A stretch of DNA of 64,000 bases from Sandaracinus amylolyticus (GTDB taxonomy: Bacteria > Myxococcota_A > Polyangia > Polyangiales > Sandaracinaceae), in NCBI RefSeq assembly GCF_000737325.1, contig NZ_CP011125.1:5456001-5520000 (forward strand). The letters run 5' to 3'. Below are positions 17,016 through 62,397 of this stretch, piece by piece. The position numbers were made by a program, and so were the translations under genes. The first letter of the stretch is position 1, and every line of letters begins with the position of its first letter. The notes beneath the pieces were generated by a model. The model had not been told where the DNA came from and searched no databases. It saw only the letters and a list, made by a program, of their open reading frames with translations.

Positions 17016-17786
17016 GTGCGGCGCGCGATCGCAGCGCTCGTCCTCGGCACCGCGCTCGTCGCGTGCGGCGGGGACGACGACGGCGAGAGCGCGCCGAGCG
17101 TGACGCGAGGACCGCAGCGCGGCGGCGGCGTCACCACCGAGAGCGCAGTCGCGGGCGGTGCGAGCGAGCCCGCGCGCGTGATGCCCGATCGCGAAGCCGC
17201 GGCGATCCGCGCGCAGACGCGCACGCCGCAGGCGTGGGGCGCGGGCCCGCAGGAGGTCACCGAGACCCGCACCGAGACGACGCCGGGCGCGACGCCCGCG
17301 CGCGATCTCGGCGCGGAGCTGCGGAGCGCGATCGGCACGCCGACGCAGTGCTTCGACGCGCAGACCGCCCGCGCGATGAGCGGCACGGTGCGCATCCCGG
17401 TGCGCGCGTACGTGACGACGACGGGGCGGATCACCCGCTCCGAAGTGGGCGGCAGCGCGCCCGAGCGCGTGCGCGCGTGCATCGTCGACTCGGTCGAGGC
17501 GCTCGCGATGCGCGGACCGGTGGAGGGCGCGCCACGCGAGGTCTCGACCGAGATCGTGCTCGACGTGCGCGCGGACAGCGCACCGACGGCGGTGCCCTCG
17601 CAGGCGCCCGAGGTCCCGCTGCAGCCCGGCGCAGTCGCGCCCGGGATCACCCTGCCCGCGCGCGGCGGCGACGATCCCGCGCCCGGCTTCGTCCCGCCCT
17701 CGAGCACGCTCCCCGCGGTCGGCCCCGACGAGCCCGCGCCCGGCTTCGTCCCGCCCTCGAGCACGCTCCCCGCGCGCGTCTACTAG
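17016..17786 (+). CDS. Lipoprotein with AgmX/TonB-like domain and a Pro-rich tail repeat
   Basis: A 256-residue lipoprotein starting at GTG 17016, two bases after the helicase stop. The signal ends in LVAC (Cys17). A Gly/Thr-rich linker leads to a domain at about residues 98-187 (ELRSAIGTPTQCFDAQ, RIPVRAYVTTTGRITRSEVG, RACIVDSVEALAM) with a cysteine pair at 112 and 155, the same pattern as in the genes at 5710 and 19520. The C-terminus contains two near-identical copies of PAPGFVPPSSTLPA (about residues 221-234 and 240-253). Its stop overlaps that of the convergent M23 gene by 4 bases. Envelope role inferred. Confidence 0.78.
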   Translation: MRRAIAALVLGTALVACGGDDDGESAPSVTRGPQRGGGVTTESAVAGGASEPARVMPDREAAAIRAQTRTPQAWGAGPQEVTETRTETTPGATPARDLGAELRSAIGTPTQCFDAQTARAMSGTVRIPVRAYVTTTGRITRSEVGGSAPERVRACIVDSVEALAMRGPVEGAPREVSTEIVLDVRADSAPTAVPSQAPEVPLQPGAVAPGITLPARGGDDPAPGFVPPSSTLPAVGPDEPAPGFVPPSSTLPARVY

Positions 17787-19519: not shown

Positions 19520-21595
19520 ATGTCCACGTCGACGGCTTCCGCCCGCACGCCTTCCGGCAACCACGGGCTCTCGCCGGGCACTGTCGTCGGGGGCCGCTTC
19601 GAGATCGAGCGCGCCGTCGGCGACGACGCCCTCGGCACGATCCTCGCGGCCCGCGACCAGAAGACCCAGCGTCCCATCGCGCTCCGCGTGCTCGGCCCCG
19701 GCCTGATCGCGACGCCCGACGCGGTCGAGATCCTCCGCGCCGAGATCAAGACCGCCGCCGCGCTCACGCACCGCAACGTCGTCGCGACCTACGGAATGGG
19801 CGCCGAGAAGAGCGGCGCCCGCTTCGTCGCGTGCGAGTGGCTCCAGGGCCAGCCCCTCACCCTCGTCGTCGCGCGCAAGAAGGCCGAGGGCCAGCCGCTC
19901 TCGCTGCGCGGCGCGTACAACGTCATCGCGAACGTCGCCAAGGCGCTCGCCGCCGCGCACGAGAAGGGCACCTCGCACGGCGCGCTGCGCCCGGCGGTCG
20001 TCTGGGTCTCGAAGAACGGCCGCGTGAAGGTGAGCGAGCTCGGCATCGCGCGCGCGATCCTCCGCACCGCCGGTCCCGCCGCGCTCGGTCCGACCGAGCA
20101 GGCGTTCCTCGCCCCCGAGGTCCGCGGCGGCGGCGCGCCCGCGGAGTCGATCGACGCGGCGAGCCGCACCGATGTCTTCGGCCTCGGCGGCCTGCTCTAC
20201 ACGATGCTCACCGGCCGCAGCGCGGGCGACGACTTCGTCGCGCCCTCGCAGGCGCACCCGGAGGCGAGCGCCGAGATCGACGCGATCCTCCTGCGCTGTC
20301 TCGCGACCGATCCCGCCGCGCGCTTCGCGACGCCCGAGGACGTGCGCGCCGCGCTCGCGCCGCACGTCGGCGGCGCCGAGGCGGCCGAGGGCGACGCGGG
20401 GGGCCTCGGCATGGACATCGACGTCGACGTCGACAGCGCGATGTCCGAGGCGCCGCCGCCGGGCTCGGGCGCGAAGGTCGTCACCCCGCCCGCCGCTGCG
20501 CTCAAGGCCCCCGCGCCTCCGAAGCCCGCCGCACCGCCGAAGCCGGCCACCGCCGCGGCGTCCGGCTCGGCACCGCGCCCGATCCCCGCGCTCGCGCCCG
20601 CCGGCGCGCCGAAGGTCGGCCAGCGCGTCTCGATCCACGAGGAGTTCCGCCCCTCGTTCGTCGACGGCATCCCCGGCGCCGCGCCGGCGCCCGCGGCCGC
20701 CGCTGCGCCGGTGCGCGCGGCCGACGTCGACCTCGGCTCGGTGCTCAACAAGATCACCGAGAACGACGCGGCGCGCTGGATGGTCCAGAAGGACAAGCTC
20801 GACCACGGTCCGTTCTCGGGCCGCGAGCTCGTCCAGCTGATCGCGAAGGGCGAGGTCCTCGGCGATCACGGCCTGCTCAACATGGACACCGGGGAGCGCC
20901 GCAAGGTCGCCGATCACCCGGACTTCGTGGAGTTCGTCGAGCAGTACCGCCTCAAGAAGGCCGCCGCCGACGAGAAGCAGGCGATCGTCACCGCGGCGAA
21001 GGTCGAGAAGACCTCGAACGCGGTGAAGTTCATGGTCGCGGGCGGCGTGCTCGTGCTGATCCTCGCGGGCGTCGGCATCTTCTTCCTCACGCGCCAGGCC
21101 GAGCAGGACACCCAGATCGCCGACGCGAACCTCGCCGATCTCTACGAGCGCGGTCAGGTCGAGATCGAAGGCACCGCGGGCATCCTCCCCGATCCTCCGC
21201 GCGGCTCGGGCCGGCGCGGCGGCGGCCGTGGTGGTCGCGCCGGCGCGCCCGGGACGTCGTACGAGGACGCGATGAGCCAGGTCGTCGACATCGGCGACGC
21301 GACCGGCAGCGGCGGCGAAGGACGCCTCTCGCCCTCGCAGGTGGCGGGCGTGATGAACGGCCGCATCAACTCGTTCTTCCCGTGCGTCGGCGAGGAGCTG
21401 CGCGCCGGTCGCTCGCTCGGTCGCGTGCGCATCGACATGGCGATCGCGGGCAGCGGCGCCGTGCTCGGCTCGAGCGTCCGCGCGGGCAGCCCCGAGTTCC
21501 AGCGCTGCGTGCAGGGACGCGTCGCCGCGATCCGCTTCCCGGGCTTCGGCGCGCCGCGCATGGGCGCGAGCTACTCGTTCGACGCGAGCCAATGA
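19520..21595 (+). CDS. Membrane-anchored pseudokinase with GYF-like and AgmX/TonB-like domains
   Basis: A 691-residue modular protein. Residues about 20-285 have the Ser/Thr kinase fold (RFEIERAVGDDALGTILAA ... LAPEVRGG ... DVFGLGGLLYTMLTG), but the catalytic residues are gone: the Lys of VAIK is Arg56, HRDLKP reads HGALRP (153-158), and DFG reads ELG (173-175). APE (198-200) remains. After a Pro/Ala linker comes a GYF-like domain (about 419-477, WMVQKDKLDHGPFSGRELVQ), one membrane segment (about 503-524) and an extracytoplasmic C-terminal domain (about 605-690) with cysteines 622 and 663. It should bind a partner in the cytoplasm and connect it to the periplasm. Its TGA overlaps the next ATG. 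Confidence 0.85.
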   Translation: MSTSTASARTPSGNHGLSPGTVVGGRFEIERAVGDDALGTILAARDQKTQRPIALRVLGPGLIATPDAVEILRAEIKTAAALTHRNVVATYGMGAEKSGARFVACEWLQGQPLTLVVARKKAEGQPLSLRGAYNVIANVAKALAAAHEKGTSHGALRPAVVWVSKNGRVKVSELGIARAILRTAGPAALGPTEQAFLAPEVRGGGAPAESIDAASRTDVFGLGGLLYTMLTGRSAGDDFVAPSQAHPEASAEIDAILLRCLATDPAARFATPEDVRAALAPHVGGAEAAEGDAGGLGMDIDVDVDSAMSEAPPPGSGAKVVTPPAAALKAPAPPKPAAPPKPATAAASGSAPRPIPALAPAGAPKVGQRVSIHEEFRPSFVDGIPGAAPAPAAAAAPVRAADVDLGSVLNKITENDAARWMVQKDKLDHGPFSGRELVQLIAKGEVLGDHGLLNMDTGERRKVADHPDFVEFVEQYRLKKAAADEKQAIVTAAKVEKTSNAVKFMVAGGVLVLILAGVGIFFLTRQAEQDTQIADANLADLYERGQVEIEGTAGILPDPPRGSGRRGGGRGGRAGAPGTSYEDAMSQVVDIGDATGSGGEGRLSPSQVAGVMNGRINSFFPCVGEELRAGRSLGRVRIDMAIAGSGAVLGSSVRAGSPEFQRCVQGRVAAIRFPGFGAPRMGASYSFDASQ

Positions 21596-22356
21596 GCCGC
21601 GCGCGCCTCTGCTTCGCGCTCGCGGCGCTGCTCGCGGGGTGCCGCGCCGAGATCGAGCGCGGCCTGCCCGAGGCGCAAGCCAACGAGGTGCTCGTCGCCC
21701 TCGACGAGCACGGCATCCACGCGGTGAAGGAGCCGGAGCGCGGCGAGGGCTCGTTCGCGATCCTCGTCTCCGGCGACGACGTCGCATCCGCGCTCGCGGT
21801 GCTGCGCGCCGAGGAGCTCCCGCGCGCGCCCGATCCCGGCCTCCACGACCTGTTCGGCACCGCGAGCCTCGTGCCCACCGCGACCGAGGAGCGCGCCCGC
21901 CTCACCGCCGCGCTCGGCGGCGAGCTCGCGCGGACCATCGAGGCGATCGACGGCGTGCTCGACGCCCGCGTCCACGTCGCGCTGCCCGACGCGAGCGAGC
22001 TCCCGCTCGACGCGCCGCCGCCGCGCCCGCGCGCATCGGTGCTGATCCGCCACCGCGGCGCGCGCGCGCCCTACGACGACGCCGCGATCCAGCGCCTCGT
22101 CGCCGGCGCGATCCAGGGCATGGACCCCGGCGACGTCGCGGTCGTCGGCGTCGCCGCGCCCGAGCCCGCCACGCCCGCGGGCGCGCACCTCGCGAGCCTC
22201 GGTCCGATCGCGGTCGCGCGCGGATCGATCGGCACGCTCAAGCTGGTGCTCGGCGTGCTGCTGGGCACCAACGGCGTGCTCGCGCTGCTCCTCGCGCTCG
22301 CGGTGGTTCGCCATCGCCGCGCCGCTCGAACTCACGACGCAGGGGGAACCACATGA
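21592..22356 (+). CDS. sctJ: Type III secretion inner-ring lipoprotein, SctJ/YscJ/HrcJ family
   Basis: A 254-residue lipoprotein of the YscJ/FliF family that builds the inner-membrane ring of type III secretion systems. Signal MSRARLCFALAALLAGC, modified Cys17. The family segments are plain: GLPEAQANEVLVALDEHGIH, an A-LAVLRAEELPR segment, DLFGTASLVPTATEERARL, ELARTIEAIDGVLDARVHVA, LPDASELPLDAPPPRPRASV. It closes with a hydrophobic C-terminal anchor (LVLGVLLGTNGVLALLLALA) and basic tail, as SctJ proteins do. No other secretion gene is in the window. It is overlapped on both sides (ATGA) by the pseudokinase and by glutamate dehydrogenase, so all three are translated together. Confidence 0.9.
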   Translation: MSRARLCFALAALLAGCRAEIERGLPEAQANEVLVALDEHGIHAVKEPERGEGSFAILVSGDDVASALAVLRAEELPRAPDPGLHDLFGTASLVPTATEERARLTAALGGELARTIEAIDGVLDARVHVALPDASELPLDAPPPRPRASVLIRHRGARAPYDDAAIQRLVAGAIQGMDPGDVAVVGVAAPEPATPAGAHLASLGPIAVARGSIGTLKLVLGVLLGTNGVLALLLALAVVRHRRAARTHDAGGTT

Positions 22357-23588
22357 GCTCGGACGCGCTCGAGAACGCCAACCGGTACTTCGAACAGGCG
22401 GCGAAGGTGCTCGACCTCGGGCGCGACGTCGCGGTGCAGCTCCGCACACCTTTCCGCGAGGTGCGCGTCGAGCTCAACGTGCGCATGGACGACGGCTCGA
22501 TCGGCACGTTCGTCGGCTATCGCGTGCAGCACGACAACGCGCGCGGGCCCTTCAAGGGCGGCCTCCGCTACCACCACGAGGTCGACGCGCAGGAGGTCAC
22601 CGCGCTCGCCCAGCTGATGACGTGGAAGACCGCCGTCGCCGGCGTCCCGTTCGGCGGCGGCAAGGGCGGCATCCACGTCGACGCGAGCAAGCTCAGCGTC
22701 GGCGAGAAGGAGCGCATCACCCGCGCCTTCGTCGACAAGATCAACGACATCGTCGGCGATCACACCGACATCCCCGCCCCCGACATGTACACGGGCCCGC
22801 AGGAGATGGGCTGGTTCCTCGACCAGTACACGAAGTACCACGGCTACAAGCCCGGCGTGGTCACCGGCAAGCCCATCGAGCTCGGCGGATCGCACGGGCG
22901 CGCGGCGGCGACCGGGCGCGGCTGTCTCTACGTCACCGAGGAGCTGATGGCGCGCCTCGGCGAGCCCCTCGTGGGCAAGACCGTCGTGGTGCAGGGCTTC
23001 GGCAACGTCGGGGGCTGGGCGGCGCGGCTCTTCGCGGAGCAGGGCGCGCTCGTCGTCGCGATCTCCGACATCTCGGGCGGCTACTACGACCCGAAGGGCA
23101 TCGACGTCGCGGCGGCGCTCGCGTGGGTCGCGAAGCACCGCACGCTCGCGGGCTTCCACGCCGCGAAGAAGGTCGACAACGACGAGCTGCTCACGCTGCC
23201 GTGCGACATCCTCGTGCCCGCCGCGCTCGGCGGCGTGATCACCGAGGAGGTCGCGCGCGGCATCCGCGCGCGCGTGATCGTCGAGGGCGCGAACGGCCCG
23301 ACCACGCCGGGCGCCGACGAGATCCTGTTCGCCAAGGGCGTGCACGTGATCCCCGACATCCTCGCGAACGCCGGCGGCGTGACCGTCAGCTACTTCGAGT
23401 GGGTGCAGAACCTCCAGCACTACTACTGGGACGAAGCGCGCGTGAACGAGGAGCTGCGCCGCGTGATGCGCGCCGCGTTCGACGCGACCTGGGAGCAGAG
23501 CCGCAGCCGCTCGCTCCCGATGCGCATGGGCGCGTACGTCGTCGGCATCGGCCGCGTCTACACCGCGACCCGCATGCGCGGCCTCTAG
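22353..23588 (+). CDS. gdhA: Glutamate dehydrogenase (Glu/Leu/Phe/Val dehydrogenase family)
   Basis: A 411-residue NAD(P)-dependent glutamate dehydrogenase, interconverting glutamate and 2-oxoglutarate plus ammonia. Substrate-binding GPFKGGLRYH, catalytic VPFGGGKGGIHVD, TDIPAPDMYTGPQEM and the dinucleotide-binding VVVQGFGNVGGWAARL followed by ISDISGGYYD are present, with EGANGPTTPGAD near the C-terminus. Length matches bacterial hexameric enzymes of the 410-430 residue class, often NAD-linked; cofactor preference is not certain by reading. The start ATG overlaps the sctJ stop, preceded by AGGGGGA. A hairpin follows 12 bases after the stop. It is unusual to find this housekeeping enzyme coupled to a secretion-ring gene. 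Confidence 0.93.
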   Translation: MSSDALENANRYFEQAAKVLDLGRDVAVQLRTPFREVRVELNVRMDDGSIGTFVGYRVQHDNARGPFKGGLRYHHEVDAQEVTALAQLMTWKTAVAGVPFGGGKGGIHVDASKLSVGEKERITRAFVDKINDIVGDHTDIPAPDMYTGPQEMGWFLDQYTKYHGYKPGVVTGKPIELGGSHGRAAATGRGCLYVTEELMARLGEPLVGKTVVVQGFGNVGGWAARLFAEQGALVVAISDISGGYYDPKGIDVAAALAWVAKHRTLAGFHAAKKVDNDELLTLPCDILVPAALGGVITEEVARGIRARVIVEGANGPTTPGADEILFAKGVHVIPDILANAGGVTVSYFEWVQNLQHYYWDEARVNEELRRVMRAAFDATWEQSRSRSLPMRMGAYVVGIGRVYTATRMRGL

Positions 23589-59862: not shown

Positions 59863-62397
59863 ATGGACGTCACCTGCGAGCGCTGCGGGACCGAGTACGA
59901 GTTCGACGAGACGCTCGTCGCGGCGCGCGGGACCACGGTCAAGTGCACGAACTGCGGGCACCTCTTCAAGGTGTTCCGCCCGGGCGCCGCGGCAGCGTCG
60001 AGCGCGCCCGGCGACGCGCGCGTGTGGACCATTCGCCGCGCCGGCGGCGGGCCGAGCGAGAGCATCGCGTCGCTGAAGGAGCTGCAGCGCCGGATCACGC
60101 TCGGTCAGCTCACGCCGGACGACGAGATCTCGCGCAGCGGCGAGGGCTGGAAGCGCCTCGGCGACATCGCCGAGCTCCAGACGTTCTTCGCGGCGGCGCA
60201 CGCCGGCCGCGGCGAGCGTCGCGACGCGACGGGCACCCAGCGCCGCGAGCCGACCGGCGCGAGCGCGACGCGGCGCGAGCCTGCGGGCCGCGAGCCTGCG
60301 GGCCGCGAGCCGACCGGCCGCGAGCCGACCGGGCGCGAGCCGACCGGCCGCGAGCCGACCGGCCGCCAGCCCACGGGGCGCGGCGACGATCGCCGGGCGT
60401 ACGCGCCGACGATGGAGATGGCGGGCCCGGCACCGAGCGCGCCCCCCGCGGGCCGCGGCCAGGGCGCCGGCAAGTCGACGATGCTGGGCATGGGCGGCGC
60501 GAGCGCGCCGCCGCCGCGGCCGTCGTCGCAGCCGCTGCCCGCGGTCGACGAGATCAAGGGGCGCACCCTCGAGATGGCGGTGCCCCCGCCCGCCGGCGCA
60601 CCGACGCCCTCGCAGGCGCCTCGGAGCGGCTCTGCGTCCGCGCCGCGCCCGGTGTCCGACGCCCACGCGACCACGCCCGGCGGCGCGCGCGCGCCCTCGG
60701 CGCGACCGCCCGCCCCGCCGCGCGCCGCGCCCCCGACGTCACGCCCGCCCGCGCCCACGCTCGGCGCGACGACGCCGGCGCCCCTGCCGCCTCCGCCGCA
60801 CGCGCCGGCGAGCCCGTCCACGCCGGCGCCCCGCACGGCGACGCCGACGCCCTCGGGCGAGAAGCGCCCGTCGTTCCGCCCGCTCCACGTCGACGAGGAC
60901 GACGATCAGCCGGCACGCCCCCGCGCGCGCAGCCGCAGCGGGCTCTGGGTCGCGCTGGTCGTGCTGCTCGCGATCGGCGGCGGCGTGGCGGCGGGATGGG
61001 ACGGGATCGCGGCGCTGCTCGGCGGCGGCGAGGAGGCCGATCGCGCCGCGCCGTTCGTGGCCGCGGGCGACGAGGCGCTCCGGCTCGATCACGAGGACGC
61101 GTACGACGACGCGATCGCGCACTACACGAAGGCGCTCGCGTTCCGCGAGCACGACGCGCGCGCGCTCACCGGTCTGTCGCGCGCCCACGCGCTGATCGCG
61201 CAGCAGCACACGTTCGACGCGATCGATCTCGAGGCGCGCGCCGAGGCCGACGCGACGCTGCGCGGCGAGGCCGCGACGCTGAGGCGCGACGCGCGCGAGC
61301 ACGCCGAGGATGCGCGCGAGCACGCCGAGGCGGCCGCGCGACACGGCGCGGGCGACGCCGACGCCGAGATCGCCCTGAGCGACGCGCTGCGGCTCGCCGG
61401 AGACCCGACGCTCTCGCGCTCGCGGCTCGATCGTGCGCGCACGCTGCGCAGCGCGCCGTCGGCCGAGGGCCTGCGCGTCGAGGCGCTGCTGGTCGCCGAT
61501 CAGGCGGGCGCGATCGCGGCGGCGCGTCCGCTCGCCGAGCGCGCGATCGCGGAGGACCCGGGGCTCGTGCGCGCGCGCCTGCTGCTCGCGCGGGCCCACC
61601 TCGCGGCGGGCGACGTGAGCGCGGCGCAGCTCCAGCTGCAAGCCGTGCTCGATCGCGTCCCCGAGCACCCGATCGCCACCGCGATGCGCGCCGCGATCGA
61701 CGCAGGACGTCCGCCCGCCGCGCCCGTGGTGGCGAGCGCCGACGCCGGCACGCCCGTCGCGGTGGCGCCGCCTCCCACGCCGACGCCTCCGCCGCCGACG
61801 ACCACGACCAGCACCCCGCCGCCGACCCCGACGGTCGCGTCCCCGCCCACGACGCCGGCCGAGCCCGCGATGCCGCGCGGCTACGACGCGCTGGTGCGCG
61901 AGGCCGAGCAGCGCCTCGAGAACGGCGACACGCGGCGCGCCCGCGCGCTCTACGAGCAGGCGCTCCGCGAGCGCGCCGGGCCCGAGGCGAGCGCGGGGCT
62001 CGGCTTCGTGATGCTCGCCGAGGGCAACGTCCGCGGCGCGCTGACGCAGCTCGAGACCGCGGCGGATCGCGGGTACGCCGACGCGCTGATCGGCGTGGGC
62101 GACGCGCACCGGCGGCTCAACCAGCGCGAGCAAGCGCTCTCGGCGTACGAGCGCTACCTCGAGCGCGCGCCGAACGGCAGCCGCGCGTCGATCGCGCGCC
62201 GCCAGGCGGACCGACTGCGCACCGAGCTCGGCGCCAGCAGCGCTCCCGAGCCCACGCCGACGCCGCAGCCGACGCCCGAGCCGAGCGAGCCGGCGCCGGA
62301 CACGACGCCGACCACCGCGCCCGACGAGCTCCCGGGACCGCGGGGCAGCACCGCGCCGCCGCCGAGCGACGTCCCCGCGATCGACTCCGAGCCCTGA
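59863..62397 (+). CDS. Zinc-ribbon/GYF-like membrane protein with TPR region
   Basis: An 844-residue modular protein. Residues 1-40 are an MJ0042-type zinc ribbon (CERCGTEYEFDETLVAARGT then KCTNCGH), followed by a GYF-like domain (about 55-110, WTIRRAGGGPSESIASLKEL) similar to that of the pseudokinase at 19520. A seven-unit REPTG-type repeat (138-172) and a long Pro/Ala linker lead to one membrane segment (about 361-378, LWVALVVLLAIGGGVAAG). The extracytoplasmic part has two TPR-like regions (about 390-570 and 640-745) separated by a Pro/Thr linker, and ends in a Pro-rich tail. Such zinc-ribbon/TPR proteins are known from myxobacterial gliding and envelope machinery. Partner unknown. Confidence 0.82.
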   Translation: MDVTCERCGTEYEFDETLVAARGTTVKCTNCGHLFKVFRPGAAAASSAPGDARVWTIRRAGGGPSESIASLKELQRRITLGQLTPDDEISRSGEGWKRLGDIAELQTFFAAAHAGRGERRDATGTQRREPTGASATRREPAGREPAGREPTGREPTGREPTGREPTGRQPTGRGDDRRAYAPTMEMAGPAPSAPPAGRGQGAGKSTMLGMGGASAPPPRPSSQPLPAVDEIKGRTLEMAVPPPAGAPTPSQAPRSGSASAPRPVSDAHATTPGGARAPSARPPAPPRAAPPTSRPPAPTLGATTPAPLPPPPHAPASPSTPAPRTATPTPSGEKRPSFRPLHVDEDDDQPARPRARSRSGLWVALVVLLAIGGGVAAGWDGIAALLGGGEEADRAAPFVAAGDEALRLDHEDAYDDAIAHYTKALAFREHDARALTGLSRAHALIAQQHTFDAIDLEARAEADATLRGEAATLRRDAREHAEDAREHAEAAARHGAGDADAEIALSDALRLAGDPTLSRSRLDRARTLRSAPSAEGLRVEALLVADQAGAIAAARPLAERAIAEDPGLVRARLLLARAHLAAGDVSAAQLQLQAVLDRVPEHPIATAMRAAIDAGRPPAAPVVASADAGTPVAVAPPPTPTPPPPTTTTSTPPPTPTVASPPTTPAEPAMPRGYDALVREAEQRLENGDTRRARALYEQALRERAGPEASAGLGFVMLAEGNVRGALTQLETAADRGYADALIGVGDAHRRLNQREQALSAYERYLERAPNGSRASIARRQADRLRTELGASSAPEPTPTPQPTPEPSEPAPDTTPTTAPDELPGPRGSTAPPPSDVPAIDSEP
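60274..60378 (+). repeat. Seven in-frame 15-bp units in the zinc-ribbon/TPR gene
   Basis: Units encode REPAG twice, REPTG four times and RQPTG once (residues 138-172). The period of 15 keeps the frame, so copy number can change without breaking the protein. It lies in the linker between the GYF-like domain and the Pro-rich region. Confidence 0.9.

Follow-up and report, generated by a model that had tools for sequence, protein, structure and literature searches.

An operon of Sandaracinus amylolyticus pairing a pseudokinase with SctJ, probably the inner-ring part of a dispersed type III secretion core

The pseudokinase-sctJ-gdh operon

The 64-kb window of DNA analyzed here, positions 5456001–5520000 of the single 10,327,335-bp contig of Sandaracinus amylolyticus, a soil predator, contains an operon that pairs a pseudokinase with SctJ, the inner-membrane-ring lipoprotein of type III secretion systems (T3SS). 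Three genes lie on the forward strand (window coordinates): the first (19520–21595) encodes a 691-amino-acid protein with a pseudokinase, a GYF-like part, a single transmembrane (TM) segment and a TonB-like tail, the second (21592–22356) is sctJ, coding for 254 residues, and the third (22353–23588), the downstream neighbor of sctJ, encodes a glutamate dehydrogenase (GDH) of 411 residues. The initial annotation described three overlapping open reading frames, and the sequence confirms them together with the ATGA stop/start overlaps at 21592–21595, between the pseudokinase gene and sctJ, and at 22353–22356, between sctJ and gdh. Equivalents of the first overlap (-4 or -1) recur in relatives from several genera. 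The second, with a Shine-Dalgarno-like AGGGGG a few bases on its 5' side, is confined to this genus among the loci read. At the operon, the coding strand shows neither a sigma-70-like promoter nor a terminator-like site. The pseudokinase and SctJ genes make up a conserved envelope module that is probably transcribed as one message.

SctJ

SctJ matches the YscJ_FliF family PF01514 with an E-value of 3.7e-24 (86 bits versus a cut-off of 24.4). Its top NCBIfam model is that of SctJ, TIGR02544, with a score of 150.5 bits, just below the cut-off of 161.95, as compared to 44.9 bits for FliF. The protein possesses a lipobox, LLAGC with Cys17, and a TM segment at its C-terminus, and a lipobox-like cysteine is present in all 20 relatives checked. 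Profile comparison matches it to the structures of PrgK from Salmonella (E 1.6e-28) and MxiJ from Shigella (3.1e-24) over ~190 residues or more. SctJ resembles these two proteins in profile, lipobox and C-terminal TM segment but, unlike theirs, its gene is not surrounded by an sct cluster and no SctD/PrgH gene is recognizable beside it.

The possibility that the protein is a remnant of the flagellar FliF was ruled out because the FliF proteins of relatives score ~200–220 bits with PF01514, versus mostly ~75–98 bits for SctJ, and because SctJ is the only YscJ_FliF protein found in a search of the whole genome, with no match for a flagellar FliF. A wider search of genome contigs for SctJ relatives, which by way of a degenerate pattern returned mostly FliF-like proteins of the Nocardioides or Sphingobium type, was not used.

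The pseudokinase protein

The product of the first gene matches Pkinase with an E-value of 4.4e-17. Its kinase fold, located in the cytoplasm, comprises residues ~25–290 and is followed by the GYF-like part (~412–475), the TM segment (~503–523), a Gly-rich linker and the tail (~604–686). All three catalytic motifs are altered, with the lysine of VAIK replaced by arginine, the aspartate of HRD by alanine, and DFG by ELG. The VAIK lysine and the HRD aspartate are lost in all full-length copies aligned, while DFG is kept in a few, such as L100 and L110 (relatives are coded G for genomes, L for loci, f for families and g for genera). Since the copies at L102, L107, L130, L136 and L137 contain only the C-lobe, and the L129 protein starts near the GYF-like part, the alignment indicates that the GYF-TM-tail portion is the constant part and that the dead kinase is its usual, though not universal, extension. 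Within the tail, Cys622 and Cys663 are invariant across the family alignment.

The tail scores 24.1 bits against the AgmX/PglI C-terminal domain (NF033768), below the cut-off of 40 bits, and this model matches 11 of the 17 aligned family members at E < 0.01. The pseudokinase protein of this genome matches neither the GltJ nor the GltG equivalog model at an E-value of 0.01; GltG appears weakly in three of the 17 members. A single-sequence structural model of the tail alone (predicted local distance difference test score, pLDDT, of 69) resembles the C-terminal domains of TonB and TolA, with Foldseek E-values of 0.014–0.2 and VIA-align Z-scores of up to 6.0 (root-mean-square deviation of 3.2 over 92 residues). 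Though modest, these scores are consistent with the similarity to AgmX/PglI and TonB_C that relatives show at the sequence level. An SctD-like ring-building motif was considered for the tail and rejected, as both Foldseek and VIA-align list TonB/TolA and not a single SctD, although such lists may miss one.

GltG and GltJ (PglI and AgmX) of the Myxococcus xanthus gliding machine are bitopic membrane proteins, as is the pseudokinase protein, and GltG combines a cytosolic signalling domain with a TonB-like motif (PMC3169522). The signalling domain of GltG is an FHA domain, whereas the protein described here carries a pseudokinase and its gene adjoins sctJ rather than glt genes.

Linkage of the two genes in Polyangiales

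Linkage was surveyed at 44 sctJ loci of the order Polyangiales other than the present one, a non-random sample of usable contigs in which some genomes share a genus. A pseudokinase homolog is located 5' of sctJ on the same strand in 34 of them, within ~0.4 kb at 33 loci and at 1.4 kb in L102, and this recurrence argues that the pair is not due to chance. The linkage holds at 27 of 28 loci outside family f11 and at 7 of 16 within it. The ten negative loci were checked again with hidden Markov models covering the kinase, the GYF-like part and the tail.

The third gene behaves differently. GDH is an ordinary glutamate dehydrogenase (ELFV_dehydrog, E 6e-80) and is found 3' of sctJ in 13 of the 44 relatives, belonging to families f1, f2 and f4, while most f11 loci have Mla ABC-transporter genes in this position. 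As the 5' gene stays and the 3' gene changes, it is the pseudokinase protein that is singled out as the partner of SctJ. The earlier proposal of an envelope assembly shared by the pseudokinase and SctJ is thus supported in the form of a conserved module; of the triplet, only the pseudokinase-sctJ link is conserved, and GDH, being linked in only 13 of 44 relatives and replaced by Mla genes elsewhere, is a common yet dispensable neighbor that probably does not belong to the assembly.

The f11 loci L102, L105, L106, L107, L108 and L174–L186 often have the phospholipid transport genes mlaF and mlaE 3' of sctJ, sometimes joined to it by an ATGA overlap.

The dispersed secretion core

Searches of the window by tblastn with SctV, SctU, SctR, SctS, SctT, SctQ and SctN gave no homologs, in line with the initial annotation, which had noted the absence of an export ATPase (SctN); the needle and the secretin were not searched for there with profiles. 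The same annotation regarded SctJ as standing alone, and in this it was mistaken. Family searches of the whole genome locate sctJ at 5.478 Mb and single copies of the other genes at six further loci: sctV at 5.797, sctR at 7.980, sctU at 1.959, sctN at 9.785, sctQ at 9.104, sctT at 5.746 and sctS at 5.745 Mb, the last two adjoining each other. SctJ is therefore not an orphan. The alternative foreseen at the outset, a complete sct cluster far away, is likewise wrong for this genome and for the order, where the core genes are dispersed. SctNJQRSTUV are the eight core genes from which Abby and Rocha built their concatenated T3SS tree (PMC3459982), and here they occupy seven loci, with distances between them that range from 51 kb to several Mb. 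All eight proteins score higher with the Sct models of NCBIfam than with the flagellar ones, SctS being almost tied (88.9 versus 88.3 bits). Homologs of SctI, SctL, SctK and SctO of the f28 type gave no tblastn match within these loci, the rest of the genome not having been searched.

The neighbors of the scattered genes are unrelated to secretion: recR/dnaX are found at sctV, priA lies 3' of sctU and dnaJ lies 5' of sctN. By its position, the GDH gene at sctJ follows the same pattern.

SctU of this genus has VGAG or AGAG in place of the NPTH self-cleavage motif, which is also lost in SctU of G146 and G147 and is intact in G084, G093 and f28. It is therefore improbable that cleavage of SctU switches the substrate from needle to effector in this system. 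The SctU proteins without NPTH are encoded at 1.959 Mb of this genome (G000:C1; L058:9490–10560) and at loci L170 of G181, L169 of G146 and L156 of G147; they belong to two separate genera, which points to repeated loss of the export-switch motif.

The ratios of nonsynonymous to synonymous substitution (dN/dS) between this genome and G181 are 0.18 for the pseudokinase gene, 0.21 for sctJ, 0.21 for sctV and 0.39 for sctU, with values of 0.03–0.14 for neighboring genes. All four genes are therefore under purifying selection.

Arrangement of sct genes across the order and in a sister lineage

Across 183 genomes of the order, matches of the SctJ type and of the SctV type are common and occur beside separate flagellar copies; PF01514 is found in 136 and PF00771 in 141 of them, flagellar copies included. 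Some genomes, such as those of genus g22, contain no SctJ. A survey of where the other sct genes lie, which had been proposed as a check, found them dispersed in the relatives as well. In genomes assembled into few contigs, sctJ and sctV are 336 kb apart in G181, 247 kb in G084, 218 kb in G146, 210 kb in G147 and 158 kb in G110, and sctU is again separate from both. No other sct genes were found in the 20-kb sctV loci of eight relatives or at the sctU loci of G084, G146, G181 and G093, and tblastn searches of 7–20 kb around sctJ in each of 24 relatives found neither SctV, SctU, SctR, SctS, SctT, SctQ and SctN nor the f28-type SctI, SctK, SctL and SctO. In G174 (L092), which is 96% complete, sctJ occurs together with the pseudokinase and GDH genes, yet FHIPEP (SctV) gave no match; the export gate may have been lost, or the assembly may have a gap.

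The f28 lineage of the same phylum, which may be Bradymonad-like, has SctJ, SctN and SctU homologous to those described here but, unlike the dispersed genes of Polyangiales, keeps sctI-J-K-L-N-O in one cluster and sctR-S-T-U in another place. Other families within the class still have sctI 5' of sctJ. The simplest order of events would be clusters, then sctI-sctJ pairs and then full dispersal in Polyangiales. Directly beside the sctI-J-K-L-N-O cluster of two f28 genomes, a Ser/Thr kinase with an AgmX/TonB-like tail is encoded (L139:14231–16462; L140:14072–16168, reverse strand). It retains VAIK, HRD and DFG and, by sequence, is apparently active. This kinase is possibly the active counterpart of the pseudokinase, or its position could be due to chance, as kinases are numerous in these genomes.

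Proposed role of the operon

The operon is probably the inner-ring part of a dispersed non-flagellar T3SS core, with the pseudokinase protein as the conserved partner of the inner ring. By analogy with known T3SS, SctJ would build the inner ring in the periplasm, encircling the export gate made of SctRSTUV, with SctQ and SctN making up the cytoplasmic platform below the gate. The pseudokinase protein would dock on the SctJ ring and, on the cytoplasmic side, use the dead kinase together with the GYF-like domain as a scaffold or as a receiver of phospho-signals. From its topology, its single TM segment is predicted to cross the inner membrane, while the TonB/TolA-like tail may cross the periplasm toward the outer membrane, where injectisomes have SctD, the rod and needle, and the secretin. 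GDH would share the message through its genome context, much as recR, priA and dnaJ lie beside sctV, sctU and sctN. A further step, in which the TonB/TolA-like pseudokinase protein on the SctJ ring replaces SctD, rod, needle and secretin in Polyangiales to yield a working, needleless, envelope-spanning machine for secretion or prey lysis from dispersed genes, is tentative and rather doubtful.

Several observations weigh against the proposed role. The model of the tail is derived from a single sequence, with a pLDDT of 69 and a best Foldseek E-value of 0.014, and the TM segment of the pseudokinase protein lacks the histidine of the classical TonB energy motif. Ten relatives, nine of them in one family, have sctJ with no pseudokinase gene nearby, and the link is therefore not obligatory in gene order. 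The loss of NPTH and the faster evolution of sctU (0.39) are compatible with partial degeneration, and the label "needleless", which would assign the system to the myxobacterial needleless type, is given by analogy.

It is unlikely that the genes are merely a decaying remnant, that is, scattered relics of an old T3SS breaking up in Polyangiales, with accidental neighborhoods. Such decay would be in keeping with the dispersal of the sct genes, with the faster evolution of sctU and its loss of NPTH, which this genus shares with G146/G147, and with the genomes of the order that lack SctJ, such as g22. However, eight full-length reading frames are kept in one copy each, dN/dS is ~0.2 for sctJ and sctV, both PF01514 (136/183) and PF00771 (141/183) persist across the order, flagellar copies included, and the partner gene is conserved.

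The physical separation of sctJ from all other sct genes, the likeness of its partner to bitopic proteins of the GltG/GltJ type and the Mla genes 3' of sctJ in many relatives could also mean that SctJ has left secretion and, independently of the other Sct proteins, now serves with the TonB/GltJ-like pseudokinase protein as its sole partner in a gliding-type motility or outer-membrane maintenance machine. This is quite unlikely, given that the remaining export core is kept in the same genome and that the homologous sctJ of f28 sits inside the sctI-J-K-L-N-O cluster. Finally, all three genes may form one functional unit, where envelope sensing by the pseudokinase and SctJ regulates or anchors GDH, for example to channel amino acids of the prey into metabolism. 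Both junctions overlap translationally and GDH adjoins sctJ in 13 of 44 relatives from three families, but it is missing from the locus in the other 31, the gdh overlap is limited to this genus among the loci read, other families have Mla genes 3' of sctJ instead, and other sct genes of this genome are likewise found beside unrelated housekeeping genes, which together make this explanation highly improbable.

Comparison with known secretion systems

The needleless T3SS* of M. xanthus (MXAN_2434–2464) is required for prey lysis at contact and acts together with the Kil pilus (PMC12075869, PMC10433427). Because of this requirement, contact-dependent prey lysis or envelope export is the leading guess for the function of the dispersed core proposed here. 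T3SS*, the "Myxo" non-flagellar T3SS (NF-T3SS) of Abby and Rocha (2012), comes from the same phylum and likewise includes SctRSTUV, SctN, SctQ and SctJ. It differs in that its genes form a single cluster, which also encodes SctD, SctI and SctL, as opposed to eight core genes at seven loci, and in the pseudokinase/TonB-like partner found at sctJ here. According to Abby and Rocha, Myxo systems occur only in Cystobacterineae, branch early and lack a secretin (PMC3459982). Contact-predation functions have been found conserved only in Myxococcaceae (PMC11821767), while SctV and SctR were noted in Polyangia and T3SS* in bradymonads (PMC11509652). Genomes of f38 with sctU, which had been taken for Myxococcus, carry flagellar clusters and were not used for the comparison with T3SS*.

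The NF-T3SS of Chlamydiales similarly has its core genes spread over several loci in the whole lineage. The T3SS of Chlamydia occupies at least four loci, three of them with core genes, and has a secretin (PMC3459982). These loci are fewer than the ones described here, where there is nearly one gene per locus, and the dispersal in Polyangiales is thus the more extreme.

A literature search, with most subscription journals outside its reach, found no description of a dispersed T3SS core in Polyangiales, which has apparently not been described before. With nearly one gene per locus, such a system was missed by cluster-based searches. Retained across Polyangiales, it widens the distribution of T3SS beyond the published view of occurrence as one cluster in Cystobacterineae only, and its conserved partner could reveal by what means a T3SS without a needle extends to the outer membrane, a question that bears on the predation machine of M. 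xanthus.

Other features of the window

A small lipoprotein-like gene (17016–17786, forward strand) is located 3' of a DEAD-box helicase gene; it is peripheral and may not belong to the operon. The order helicase–lipoprotein–pseudokinase–sctJ–gdh is shared by the relatives L092, L096 and L097. The lipoprotein-like protein contains repeated segments of the PPSSTLPA type and gave no family match. No Rfam families were found in the window. At 59863–62397, an 844-residue protein is encoded, with an MJ0042 zinc ribbon, a weak GYF_2 match and TPR repeats, whose N-terminus weakly resembles GltJ.

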